Assembly (NCBI RefSeq): GCF_026967935.1
Contig: NZ_JAPVBL010000002.1
Span: 248,001 to 312,000 of the forward strand
From: Modestobacter sp. VKM Ac-2982
GTDB taxonomy: Bacteria > Actinomycetota > Actinomycetes > Mycobacteriales > Geodermatophilaceae
Direction: 5' to 3'
Length of the DNA stretch: 64,000 nt
The notes below the pieces were generated by a model that saw only the letters and a list, made by a program, of their open reading frames with translations, did no database searches and was not told the origin of the DNA. The position numbers were made by a program, and so were the translations under genes. Position 1 is the stretch's first letter; each line of letters starts with the position of its first letter. This document shows, one piece after another, positions 270 through 8,542 of this stretch.

Positions 270-2735
270 ATGCAGATCGACCGCATCGCAGAACCGTGGG
301 GCACCCGGACGCCGTACGGACCGGGGGAGGACTGGCCCACCCGGGTCGACACCCACCTGACCGACGGGGTGGCCGCCGAGGACGTGGACCGCTGGGTCCA
401 GTCGGCGACGATCCTGCACTCCAACGGCGACGGCCTGGACATCGCCGTCAAGGACGGCGAGATCGTCGGCGTCCGGGGCCGCGCCGAGGACCGGGTCAAC
501 CACGGCCGGCTCGGGCCCAAGGACCTCTTCGGCTGGCAGGCGAACAAGTCGCCGGACCGGTTGACGAAGCCGCTGATCCGGCGCAACGGGGAGCTGGTGG
601 AGACCGACTGGGACACCGCGATGGACGCGGTCGCCGGCCGGGCCAAGGAGCTGCTGGCCGAGCAGGGCCCCAGCGCGATCAGCTTCTACACCACCGGGCA
701 GCTGTTCCTGGAGGAGTACTACACCCTCGGGCTGATCGCCCACGGCGGCATCGGCACCAATCACGTCGACGGCAACACCCGGCTGTGCACGGCGACCGCG
801 GCCGCGGCGCTCAAGGAGTCCTTCGGCTGCGACGGGCAGCCCGGTTCCTACACCGACATCGACCACGCCGACGTGATCGCGCTCTTCGGGCACAACATGG
901 CCGAGACGCAGACCGTGCTGTGGACCCGGGTCCTGGACCGGCTGGCCGGCCCCAACCCGCCCCAGGTCATCTGCGTGGACCCGCGGGAGACCCCCGTCGC
1001 CCGGGCGGCGACGGTGCACCTCGCCCCGCGCCCGGGCACCAACGTCATGCTGATGAACGCCCTGCTGCACGAGGTGATCGCCAACGGCTGGGTCGACGAG
1101 GAGTACGTGCAGGCGCACGCCGTCGGGTTCGCCGAGCTGCAGCAGCGGGTGGCCGACTACCCGCCGGAGCTCGCCGCGCAGATCTGCGACGTCCCGGTCG
1201 AGCAGATCCGGGAGGCGGCCCGCATCGTCGGCACCGCCGAGCGGCTGATGTCCAGCGTCCTGCAGGGCTTCTACCAGTCGCACCAGGCCACCGCGGCCGC
1301 CGTGCAGGTCAACAACCTGCACATCATCCGCGGCATGCTCGGCAAGCCCGGCTGCGGGCTGCTGCAGATGAACGGCCAGCCCACCGCGCAGAACACCCGC
1401 GAGTGCGGCGCCGACGGCGACCTGCCCGCCTTCCGCAACTGGTCCAACGAGCAGCACGTGAAGGACCTCGCGAAGGTCTGGAACCTCGACCCGATGCAGA
1501 TCCCGCACTGGTCGCCGCCCACGCACGCCATGGAGATGTTCCGGTACGCCGAAGAGGGCTCCATCAGGTTCATGTGGGTGCAGGCCACCAACCCGGCGGT
1601 CTCCCTGCCCGAGCTGGGCCGGATCCGGGAGGTCCTCGCCCAGGAACGGCTGTTCCTCGTGGTGCAGGACATCTTCCTGTCCGAGACGGCGCAGCTCGCC
1701 GACGTCGTGCTGCCGGCGGCCACCTGGGGGGAGAAGACCGGCACGTTCACCAACGTCGACCGCACCGTGCACATCTCGGACAAGGCGGTCGAGCCCCCGG
1801 GGGAGGCCCGACCCGACCTGGACATCTTCATCGACTTCTCGCGTCGCATGGACCTGCAGGACAAGGACGGCCAGCCACTGGTGAAGTGGTCGACGCCCGA
1901 GGAGGCCTTCGAGGGCTGGAAGGAGTGCACCCGCGGGCGGCCCTGCGACTACACCGGCCTGAGCTACGAGAAGCTGCGCGGGGGCAGCGGCATCCAGTGG
2001 CCGTGCAACGAGGAGAACCCCGACGGAACCGAGCACATCTACGTCGACGGTCAGTTCTGGTCAGCGCCCGACTACTGCGAGAGCTACGGCCGGGACCTGG
2101 TGACCGGCGCGCCGGTGTCACCGGTCGAGTACAAGGCGCTGAACCCCACCGGCAAGGCGGTCCTGAAGGCGGTCGAGTACCTCCCGCCGCACGAGGTCGT
2201 CAGCCAGGACTTCCCCTTCCAGCTGATCACCGGCCGCACGCTCTACCACTTCCACACCCGGACGAAGACCGCCCGGGCGCCGCAGCTGCAGAAGGCAGCA
2301 CCGGAGGTGTGGGTGGAGCTGTCGGCCAGTGACGCCGCCGACCGTGGCTTCACCGAGGGCGACCTGCTGGAGATCAGCACCCCCCGGGGCCGGGTGGAGG
2401 CCCGGCTGCGGATCAGCGGGATCCGTCCTGGCGTGGCCTTCCTGCCGTTCCACTACGGGTACTGGGACGAGCCCTCGGGCCACGAACCAGACGGGAAGCG
2501 GGGCCGGGCGGCCAACGAGCTGACGCTCACCGACTGGGACCCGGCGTCCAAGCAGCCGATCTTCAAGACCGCCGCCGCCCGGGTGGAGCGCCTGGAGAAG
2601 AGCACCGGGCAGCCGTCGGCCGCGCCCACCACCACCGCGTCCCGGCCGGTCAGCGGGGACGTCCCGCCGACGGTGGGCGGCCCTGCCGCCTCGGCCACCG
2701 AAGAGCTCACGACCGTTTCCGGAGGCACGCGATGA
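270..2735 (+). CDS. molybdopterin (bis-MGD) oxidoreductase, nitrate reductase/formate dehydrogenase-like, without the usual Fe-S ligands
   Basis: An 821-residue member of the DMSO-reductase superfamily. It should carry a bis-MGD molybdenum cofactor and act as a cytoplasmic oxidoreductase; the substrate is unknown. The start at 270 is chosen because GGGAGA lies 6 bases upstream and the conserved N-terminal domain begins soon after. The Mo-domain motif NTRLC places a probable Mo-ligand cysteine at residue 173, as in assimilatory nitrate reductases. The C-terminal molydop-binding domain contains LITGRTLYHFHTRTKT. Oddly, the N-terminal CxxCxxxC motif that normally binds a [4Fe-4S] cluster reads T47-I-L-H50-S-N-G-D54: spacing is intact but all three cysteines are gone. 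The last ~50 residues are a low-complexity Pro/Ala/Ser/Thr tail. No signal peptide is visible. The stop overlaps the next gene by ATGA, so the two are probably translationally coupled. Family is certain; substrate and electron route are not. Confidence 0.9.
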   Translation: MQIDRIAEPWGTRTPYGPGEDWPTRVDTHLTDGVAAEDVDRWVQSATILHSNGDGLDIAVKDGEIVGVRGRAEDRVNHGRLGPKDLFGWQANKSPDRLTKPLIRRNGELVETDWDTAMDAVAGRAKELLAEQGPSAISFYTTGQLFLEEYYTLGLIAHGGIGTNHVDGNTRLCTATAAAALKESFGCDGQPGSYTDIDHADVIALFGHNMAETQTVLWTRVLDRLAGPNPPQVICVDPRETPVARAATVHLAPRPGTNVMLMNALLHEVIANGWVDEEYVQAHAVGFAELQQRVADYPPELAAQICDVPVEQIREAARIVGTAERLMSSVLQGFYQSHQATAAAVQVNNLHIIRGMLGKPGCGLLQMNGQPTAQNTRECGADGDLPAFRNWSNEQHVKDLAKVWNLDPMQIPHWSPPTHAMEMFRYAEEGSIRFMWVQATNPAVSLPELGRIREVLAQERLFLVVQDIFLSETAQLADVVLPAATWGEKTGTFTNVDRTVHISDKAVEPPGEARPDLDIFIDFSRRMDLQDKDGQPLVKWSTPEEAFEGWKECTRGRPCDYTGLSYEKLRGGSGIQWPCNEENPDGTEHIYVDGQFWSAPDYCESYGRDLVTGAPVSPVEYKALNPTGKAVLKAVEYLPPHEVVSQDFPFQLITGRTLYHFHTRTKTARAPQLQKAAPEVWVELSASDAADRGFTEGDLLEISTPRGRVEARLRISGIRPGVAFLPFHYGYWDEPSGHEPDGKRGRAANELTLTDWDPASKQPIFKTAAARVERLEKSTGQPSAAPTTTASRPVSGDVPPTVGGPAASATEELTTVSGGTR

Positions 2736-7134: not shown

Positions 7135-7183
7135 CCGGCCCGCCGCACCGCCGCGGCACAGGCCGGTGGGCGACACTCCCGGC

Positions 7184-8542
7184 ATGTCCAATCCCGACTC
7201 CCACCGCGGCGGGCTGCTGAGCCGGCTGGTCGGCATGGTCCGGGGCAGCCTGTGGCCGATCCCGGCGCTGGGTGTGATGCTGGCCGTCGCCCTCGGCGTC
7301 CTGCTGCCGGAGCTGGACCAGCACTGGGCCACCCGCGAGCACCCGCTGACCTTCGCCTTCGGCGGCGGGGCGTCCGCGGCGCGCGACCTGCTGGCCGCGA
7401 TCGCCGGCTCGCTGATCTCGGTCACGGGCGTGACCTTCTCGCTCACCGTCGTCGCGCTGCAGCTGAGCAGCAGCCAGTTCACGCCCCGGCTGCTCCAGAC
7501 GTTCTCCACCGACCGCACGGTGCAGCTGACCCTGGCCCAGCTCGTGCTCACCTTCGTCTACGCGCTCACCGTGCTGCGGACGGTGCGCACCGAGAGCGCC
7601 ACGGAAGACGAGAGCGCCTTCGTGCCGCGGCTGTCGATCACGGTGGCCTACCTGCTGGCGCTGGGCAGCGTGCTGGCGCTCGTCCTCTTCCTGGGGCACC
7701 TCTCGCGGCTGCTGCGGGTGGAGACGATGTTGCGCGACGTCCACGACGAGGCCACCCAGACCGTCGCGCGGGAGCTCGACGAGCCGGACGGTGGGGCCCG
7801 CGACACGGTGGGGCACCACGCCGCCGGGCCGCCGGTGCCGCTGGTGGCCCGGTCCAGCGGCTTCCTCGTCGGGGTGGACGAGCGGGCGGCCGTCGCCGCC
7901 GCGCGCGAGGCCGGCGTGGTCGTCACCCTGGCCGTGCGGATCGGCGACTCCGTCGTCGAGGGGACGCCGGTGGCCCACGCCCGGTCGCTCGCGCCCGGCG
8001 GCAGCCCGGACACCGAGACGCTGGAGGAGGCGCTGGACTCGAGCTTCCAGCTGCACTACGAGCGGACTCCCGACCGGGACCTCGCCTACGGGCTGCGCAA
8101 GGTCGTGGACATCTGCGTCCGCGCGCTGTCCCCGGGCACCAACGACCCGACGACGGCGGTGCACGCCCTCTCGCACGCCTCCGCGATGCTCGGGCGGTTC
8201 GCCGAGTGCCCTGTGGAGCCCCGCGCCTGCCGCGACGAGGAGCAGCGGGTCCGGCTGGTCGTGCCGCCGTGGGAGCTGCCGGAGCTGCTGCAGCTGACGA
8301 TCGAGGAGCCGCTGCAGTTCGCCGAGGGGCAGCCCACCGTGCTCCGCCGGCTGGCGGGGCTGCTGCGAGAGTTCGCCTGGCGTGCGCAGGGCCGCTCCGT
8401 CGACGACCTGGTGTGCCGCTACGTCGACGCGGTCGCCGATCAGGCGCTGGCCTCCACCGGGATCACCGAGTCCGAGACCCGGGCGTGGCGGCAGAAGGTC
8501 CGCCAGGCGCTGGCCGGGAGCTGGCCGGCCGAGGTCGGCTGA
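7184..8542 (+). CDS. DUF2254 family predicted membrane protein
   Basis: A protein of about 452 residues matching the DUF2254 family (predicted membrane protein, role unknown). Transmembrane segments lie around residues 20-45, 70-100 (SLISVTGVTFSLTVVALQLSS region), 120-145 and 155-185; a soluble C-terminal half follows. The family signature QFTPRLLQTF follows the second hydrophobic region. ATG at 7184 is taken as start; an in-frame GTG at 7166 is possible and neither has a strong ribosome site. It stands alone between the STAS gene and a DUF421 gene. Confidence 0.8.
   Translation: MSNPDSHRGGLLSRLVGMVRGSLWPIPALGVMLAVALGVLLPELDQHWATREHPLTFAFGGGASAARDLLAAIAGSLISVTGVTFSLTVVALQLSSSQFTPRLLQTFSTDRTVQLTLAQLVLTFVYALTVLRTVRTESATEDESAFVPRLSITVAYLLALGSVLALVLFLGHLSRLLRVETMLRDVHDEATQTVARELDEPDGGARDTVGHHAAGPPVPLVARSSGFLVGVDERAAVAAAREAGVVVTLAVRIGDSVVEGTPVAHARSLAPGGSPDTETLEEALDSSFQLHYERTPDRDLAYGLRKVVDICVRALSPGTNDPTTAVHALSHASAMLGRFAECPVEPRACRDEEQRVRLVVPPWELPELLQLTIEEPLQFAEGQPTVLRRLAGLLREFAWRAQGRSVDDLVCRYVDAVADQALASTGITESETRAWRQKVRQALAGSWPAEVG

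Follow-up and report, generated by a model that had tools for sequence, protein, structure and literature searches.

To our knowledge, the N-terminal iron-sulfur cluster FS0 is generally taken as standard in the Cys-ligated nitrate reductase and formate dehydrogenase (FDH) branch of the DMSOR-family molybdoenzymes, where it is regarded as the sole electron gate to molybdenum. In NapA of D. desulfuricans (PDB 2NAP/2V45), four Cys hold the cluster, the Mo ligand forms a Cys-Met pair, and NapB is the partner protein. FDHs of the FdhF/FdhH kind (Mo/W) carry Sec/Cys-His at molybdenum together with FS0. DorA, TorA, and BisC are Mo-only enzymes within the DMSOR fold, have no FS0, and use Ser as the Mo ligand. 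The arsenite oxidase AioA has a CxxCxxxC motif with a 3Fe-4S cluster, works with a Rieske partner, and has no Cys Mo ligand. In NarG, His ligation of FS0 is established (PMC10609526), with three Cys and the cluster kept. Here, we describe a clade of actinobacterial enzymes that departs from the Cys-ligated branch in a single hallmark, FS0, and agrees with it in the others.

We analyzed a 64,000-nucleotide window of the genome of Modestobacter sp. VKM Ac-2982 (contig NZ_JAPVBL010000002.1), in which the gene P1 (270..2735, + strand; third-codon-position GC content [GC3] of 0.97) encodes a DMSOR-family molybdopterin oxidoreductase of 821 amino acids (aa). The Pfam families Molybdopterin (2e-62) and Molydop_binding (5e-29) both matched P1 strongly, whereas Molybdop_Fe4S4 reached 18.1 bits against a cut-off of 22.7, its match beginning only at profile position 16. 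NapA of D. desulfuricans was the closest PDB relative both by sequence (376 bits) and by fold (TM 0.82/0.93). The AF2 model of P1 had a pLDDT of 87.6 and a pTM of 0.90, with plasmid-record sequences left out of the alignment used for structure prediction. Alignment with NapA confirmed the original prediction that three residues of P1, Thr47 (408-410), His50 (417-419), and Asp54 (429-431), stand with exact spacing at the three N-terminal cluster Cys, in the segment T47-I-L-H50-S-N-G-D54 (408..431, + strand) that occupies the CxxCxxxC site, and that the Mo ligand Cys173 is kept. The NapA motif GLLClKG aligned with G82-P-K84-D85 of P1 (513..524, + strand), placing Gly82 at the fourth cluster Cys and Lys84 at the bridging Lys; the next residue, Asp85, is confined to the type without the cluster. 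P1 lacks the full set of four cluster ligands and not just three of them. At the active site, Cys173 (786-788) is followed by Thr174 (C173-T174, 786..791, + strand), where NasA/NapA-type enzymes have Met and FDHs have His, and Arg377 aligned with the active-site Arg of NapA.

Domain order, fold, and Cys ligand make P1 a member of the Cys-ligated NapA/NasA/FDH branch, the four-Cys [4Fe-4S] site of which it lacks. It shares with NapA the Cys at molybdenum, the bridging Lys, and the active-site Arg. It differs in having Thr, His, Asp, and Gly (plus Asp85) in place of four cluster Cys, in its Cys-Thr pair, in having P2 rather than NapB as its partner, and in its N terminus, where no Tat signal was seen. 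The nitrate reductase models of NCBIfam missed their cut-offs on P1 (NasC, 416 versus 1100 bits; NapA, 322-337 versus 904-931 bits). P1 has the same fold as FdhF/FdhH, and TIGR01591 was its best NCBIfam model (458 bits, under the cut-off of 666); a further FDH likeness is that some relatives of P1 are linked to fdhD/fdhF or FNT. Unlike FDHs, all members of the P1 type have Cys-Thr, and they lack FS0.

P1 would resemble DorA, TorA, and BisC as a Mo-only enzyme without FS0. Since its Cys ligand places it in the NapA/FDH branch, as originally predicted, the cluster loss is separate from that in these Ser-ligated enzymes (the torA model scored 56 bits against a cut-off of 1465). The earlier idea of a convergent loss thus stands only relative to DorA/TorA; within the family itself, the tree is compatible with one loss. 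AioA is distant from P1 (107 bits), and its three-Cys motif is instead a likeness to the sister type described below. NarG, like P1, has a His at a position of the N-terminal cluster motif, but it retains three Cys and the cluster, whereas P1 has none of the Cys. By their described lengths and domain architecture, the Mycobacterium smegmatis proteins MSMEG_6816 and MSMEG_2237 (720 and 760 aa, with an Fe4S4 domain; PMC7816997) do not match P1.

The best 80 loci in a scan of GTDB species were 72 to 96% identical to P1, and the HSNGD signature was present in 80 out of 80. The genera represented include Modestobacter, Blastococcus, Geodermatophilus, Rhodococcus, Arthrobacter, Nocardioides, Streptomyces, Nonomuraea, Nocardia, Kribbella, Nocardiopsis, and Mycobacterium. 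As none of these closest homologues has the motif Cys, the loss of the cluster motif is real and a trait of the whole clade. In a class-level sample, the family (E<=1e-150) occurred in 62 of 395 genomes and 24 of 138 genera; 47 of the 62 genomes carried the form found in P1, which we refer to as the HD type, 10 had a three-Cys motif, and 5 had a degenerate one. Among deduplicated HD sequences, H50, D54, K84, D85, and C173 were each present in 135 of 135, T174 was likewise invariant, and so were the active-site and cofactor-binding positions. Position 47 was more relaxed (Ser in 91, Thr in 35, and Ala in 9), and position 82, the place of the fourth Cys, was Gly or Asp. The HD type showed no new invariant Cys beyond those already common in its C3 relatives. 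With other phyla covered through plasmids and the best 80 GTDB loci, HD sequences were found in Actinomycetota only. Public annotation names relatives on plasmids "nitrate reductase" by similarity only, and we found no report on the HD clade among open-licence papers.

Actinobacterial relatives reading CVLCSNGC at this site, as named in the original prediction, do exist, although they already lack the fourth Cys. This sister type, C3 (loci L125, L150, L169, L173-L180, L183, and L217), is 57 to 66% identical to P1; its members are found in some Actinomycetota and, carried by plasmids, in Deinococcus, Hymenobacter, Halomonas, and the cyanobacterium Gloeothece. The fourth cluster-Cys position is Gly, so these enzymes have three motif Cys only; about half of them have an extra Cys at position 56, two residues past the motif. 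Over the 821 positions, only 50, 54, and 85 separated the two types cleanly (a residue fixed in 90% or more of HD sequences and shared by no more than 10% of C3 sequences), which ties Asp85 to the cluster loss. Position 85 is Gly in 17 of 17 C3 sequences and Asp throughout the HD type, and Lys84 is invariant in both. C173, T174, H208, Y335, Q336, Q366, N375, R377, and E378 are identical in the two types, and this common active site (C173-T174, R377) is unlike that of NapA/NasA (Cys-Met) or FDH (Sec/Cys-His). From these shared residues, we infer that the reaction is unchanged and that the electron gate has changed. Upstream of an intact HD-type gene, Streptomyces sp. DH24 has a CVLCSNGC-type copy that is truncated and frameshifted (L043:694-1666), a remnant of the cluster-bearing form at this locus. 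A more distant relative (42%) on a Staphylococcus saprophyticus plasmid (L172:5404-8379) has CGLCSVGC and GRLGPKG (three Cys); it is preceded by a 181-aa protein without a Pfam family, and no P2 lies behind it.

A third clade, five sequences from one genus (L203-L207), nests with HD sequences in the tree and has Gly50, Asp or Glu at position 54, Arg84, and Glu85. It has lost C173 in three of the five sequences and both R377 and Q144 in all of them, and a P2-like sequence still lies nearby. Judged by these residues, its members are probably pseudoenzymes, that is, non-catalytic descendants. Trees were built without the trait columns, with cluster-bearing C4 sequences as the outgroup. C3 sequences were basal or interleaved, some of them falling among HD sequences in the free trees, which require two or three changes. 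Constraining HD and the third clade to group together did not worsen the fit (AU p=0.55, with a log-likelihood 1.8 higher), and the nodes near the C3/HD split had weak support (SH-aLRT of 87 to 96). One single cluster loss would thus be compatible with the tree, and we propose for the HD type an ancestor whose N-terminal cluster was held by three Cys.

The partner gene P2 (2732..3214, + strand), whose start overlaps the P1 stop (ATGA), encodes an all-helical protein of 160 aa with a putative ferritin-like four-helix fold. It adjoins P1 downstream in 79 of the best 80 GTDB loci, with a 4-bp overlap in 71 of the 79, and in the plasmid collection it occurs only beside P1-type enzymes (15 records). 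On a plasmid of Halomonas sp. KO116 (L166:6983-9811), the P2 domain is the C terminus of a C3-type enzyme. Linkage and fusion show P2 to be an almost obligate, stable subunit common to both types. Behind the Halomonas fusion lie HPP, fdhD, and, on the reverse strand, a DUF1641/fdhF pair. The AF2 model of P2 was a confident helical bundle (pLDDT of 90.2), and Foldseek matched it to ferritins and bacterioferritin with a probability of 1.00 but a weak E value (5e-3) and a TM of about 0.6 to 0.7; the P2 of C3 loci matched DUF892 and DUF2383, both below the cut-off. E14, H28, H48, D98, W113, Q118, C135, W145, K151, and Q156 are conserved in the partners of both types, with C135 kept in 116 of 120 HD partners and 12 of 15 C3 partners. 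A classical di-iron ferritin site was not supported, as E14, H28, H48, and D98 are conserved but the two ExxH motifs are lacking, and no known redox motif was shown in P2. Because P2 accompanies C3 (CVLCSNGC) enzymes as well, it predates the cluster loss, and replacement of the lost cluster was rejected as its origin; the coupled gene, suggested earlier as a supplier of the missing redox function, did not arise for that role.

The third gene, P3 (3214..3882, + strand), shares one base with the P2 stop and encodes a membrane carrier of the GPR1/FUN34/YaaH family (Pfam PF01184). A GPR1/FUN34/YaaH protein directly follows P2 in 23 loci and an HPP-family protein does so in 13 (C3 and HD); in Deinococcus aetherius, this slot has FNT and then HPP. 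HPP proteins are reportedly nitrite transporters (Maeda 2014), and FNT proteins carry formate or nitrite. The presence of unrelated carriers in one slot suggests that it encodes a small-anion carrier (of the HPP, FNT, or YaaH type, depending on the organism), and the substrate or product of P1 would then be a small anion, either a nitrate-like oxyanion or a formate-like carboxylate. Just upstream of the window lies a Zn-dependent alcohol dehydrogenase (ADH) gene (L005:11180-12421) with the glutathione-independent formaldehyde dehydrogenase model as its best match, below the cut-off. Related ADHs were found near 19 HD and 4 C3 loci, and these recurring neighbors would favor a C1 substrate for P1; the Cys-Thr pair in place of Cys/Sec-His would argue against P1 being an ordinary FDH. 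Wider clustering of neighbors gave only P3, ADH, SDR, NhaP, DUF2254, and DUF421, at lower frequency. A DUF2254 membrane protein is encoded at 7166-8542 of the window, and such proteins also occur in the vicinity of further HD loci and of the Gloeothece locus.

Elsewhere, the host genome encodes a NasC-like protein alongside NirB and NarK, which makes P1 unlikely to be its assimilatory nitrate reductase, as well as a separate FDH. FdhD was nearly universal in the sampled genomes, so its co-occurrence with P1 is uninformative; two P1-type carriers (G079 and G458) gave no match to FdhD. The host's own FDH (L244:7041-10574, contig C8) reads TAG in frame where selenocysteine would be encoded (R-I-TAG-H-S-A-T-V), putting TAG-His at the position of the Mo ligand. 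UAG-coded Sec has already been reported in Geodermatophilaceae (PMC5330540).

The reading that we favor, as the probable one from the sequence comparisons, is that P1 is a Mo-bisMGD-only enzyme whose cluster pocket has become a His/Asp/Asp/Lys polar network and whose electrons take a direct route. P1 would be a cytoplasmic member of the Cys-ligated NapA/NasA/FDH branch, the cluster having been lost in an ancestor, and H50, D54, and D85 would join the old bridging Lys84 in a fixed network of polar residues within the vacated pocket. This network may pack the fold and connect the proximal pterin to the surface. The Mo active site would be that of the cluster-bearing relatives and the reaction probably the same, with only electron entry or exit changed: electrons would pass directly between pterin/Mo and an external partner rather than through FS0, the putative partner being a soluble carrier or P2 docked on P1. 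The bridging Lys of NapA is essential, acting via a hydrogen-bond network between the Mo cofactor and the cluster (PMC13223375). The persistence of Lys84 in P1, where no cluster would be present, suggests that conservation falls on the network rather than on the cluster.

The strict invariance of His, Asp, and Asp nevertheless exceeds the usual need of packing and would also fit a metal site. Such a site, with a single Fe, Mn, Zn, or similar ion at H50, D54, and D85 as a new redox or structural center near Lys84 and the pterin, seems unlikely but is the main rival. The three residues appear together with the cluster loss, two of them where cluster ligands used to be and the third a single residue beyond the bridging Lys, and metals are commonly bound by one His together with two carboxylates. 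The polar network explains the same invariance, however, and the HD sequences may share one origin event, so that the co-occurrence is not independent evidence. The third clade also speaks against a metal, having Gly for H50 and Glu for D85, although the catalytic residues are lost there too. That this metal, with Lys84, would specifically relay electrons to the pterin, taking the place of the iron-sulfur relay in an enzyme left intact elsewhere, is slightly more doubtful still.

Far less probable is that the P1 type is a non-enzymatic or dying relic that lost its cluster as redox chemistry ceased. Decay does occur in the family, as the third clade illustrates, but in the HD type the active-site and cofactor-binding positions are all invariant, the P1 gene is under purifying selection (dN/dS of 0.12 to 0.24 versus neighbors), and many genera retain P1 together with P2. 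We give marginally less credence again to an iron-sulfur cluster still bound through His, Asp, and other residues or through a Cys donated by P2 (C135). The nearly invariant C135 and the His-ligated FS0 of NarG lend this some plausibility, but NarG keeps three Cys where P1 has none at four positions, and C135 is equally conserved beside cluster-bearing enzymes. We know of no precedent for a [4Fe-4S] cluster held by His and Asp with at most one foreign Cys. A sequencing error or local oddity of the Modestobacter genome is ruled out, as 135 distinct sequences, drawn from many genera and assemblies, have the same residues.

With all of the cluster Cys lost, we infer that the HD type, widespread in actinobacteria, must move electrons by a route other than FS0. 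The family offers a natural series around one active site, from three Cys through His/Asp/Asp to active-site decay. It allows tests of what purpose FS0 serves and of how a molybdoenzyme works without it. It also raises the question of whether the loss of an oxygen-sensitive cluster aided the spread of these enzymes among aerobic, often stress-tolerant soil actinobacteria, and it may indicate a possible route to simpler molybdoenzymes.
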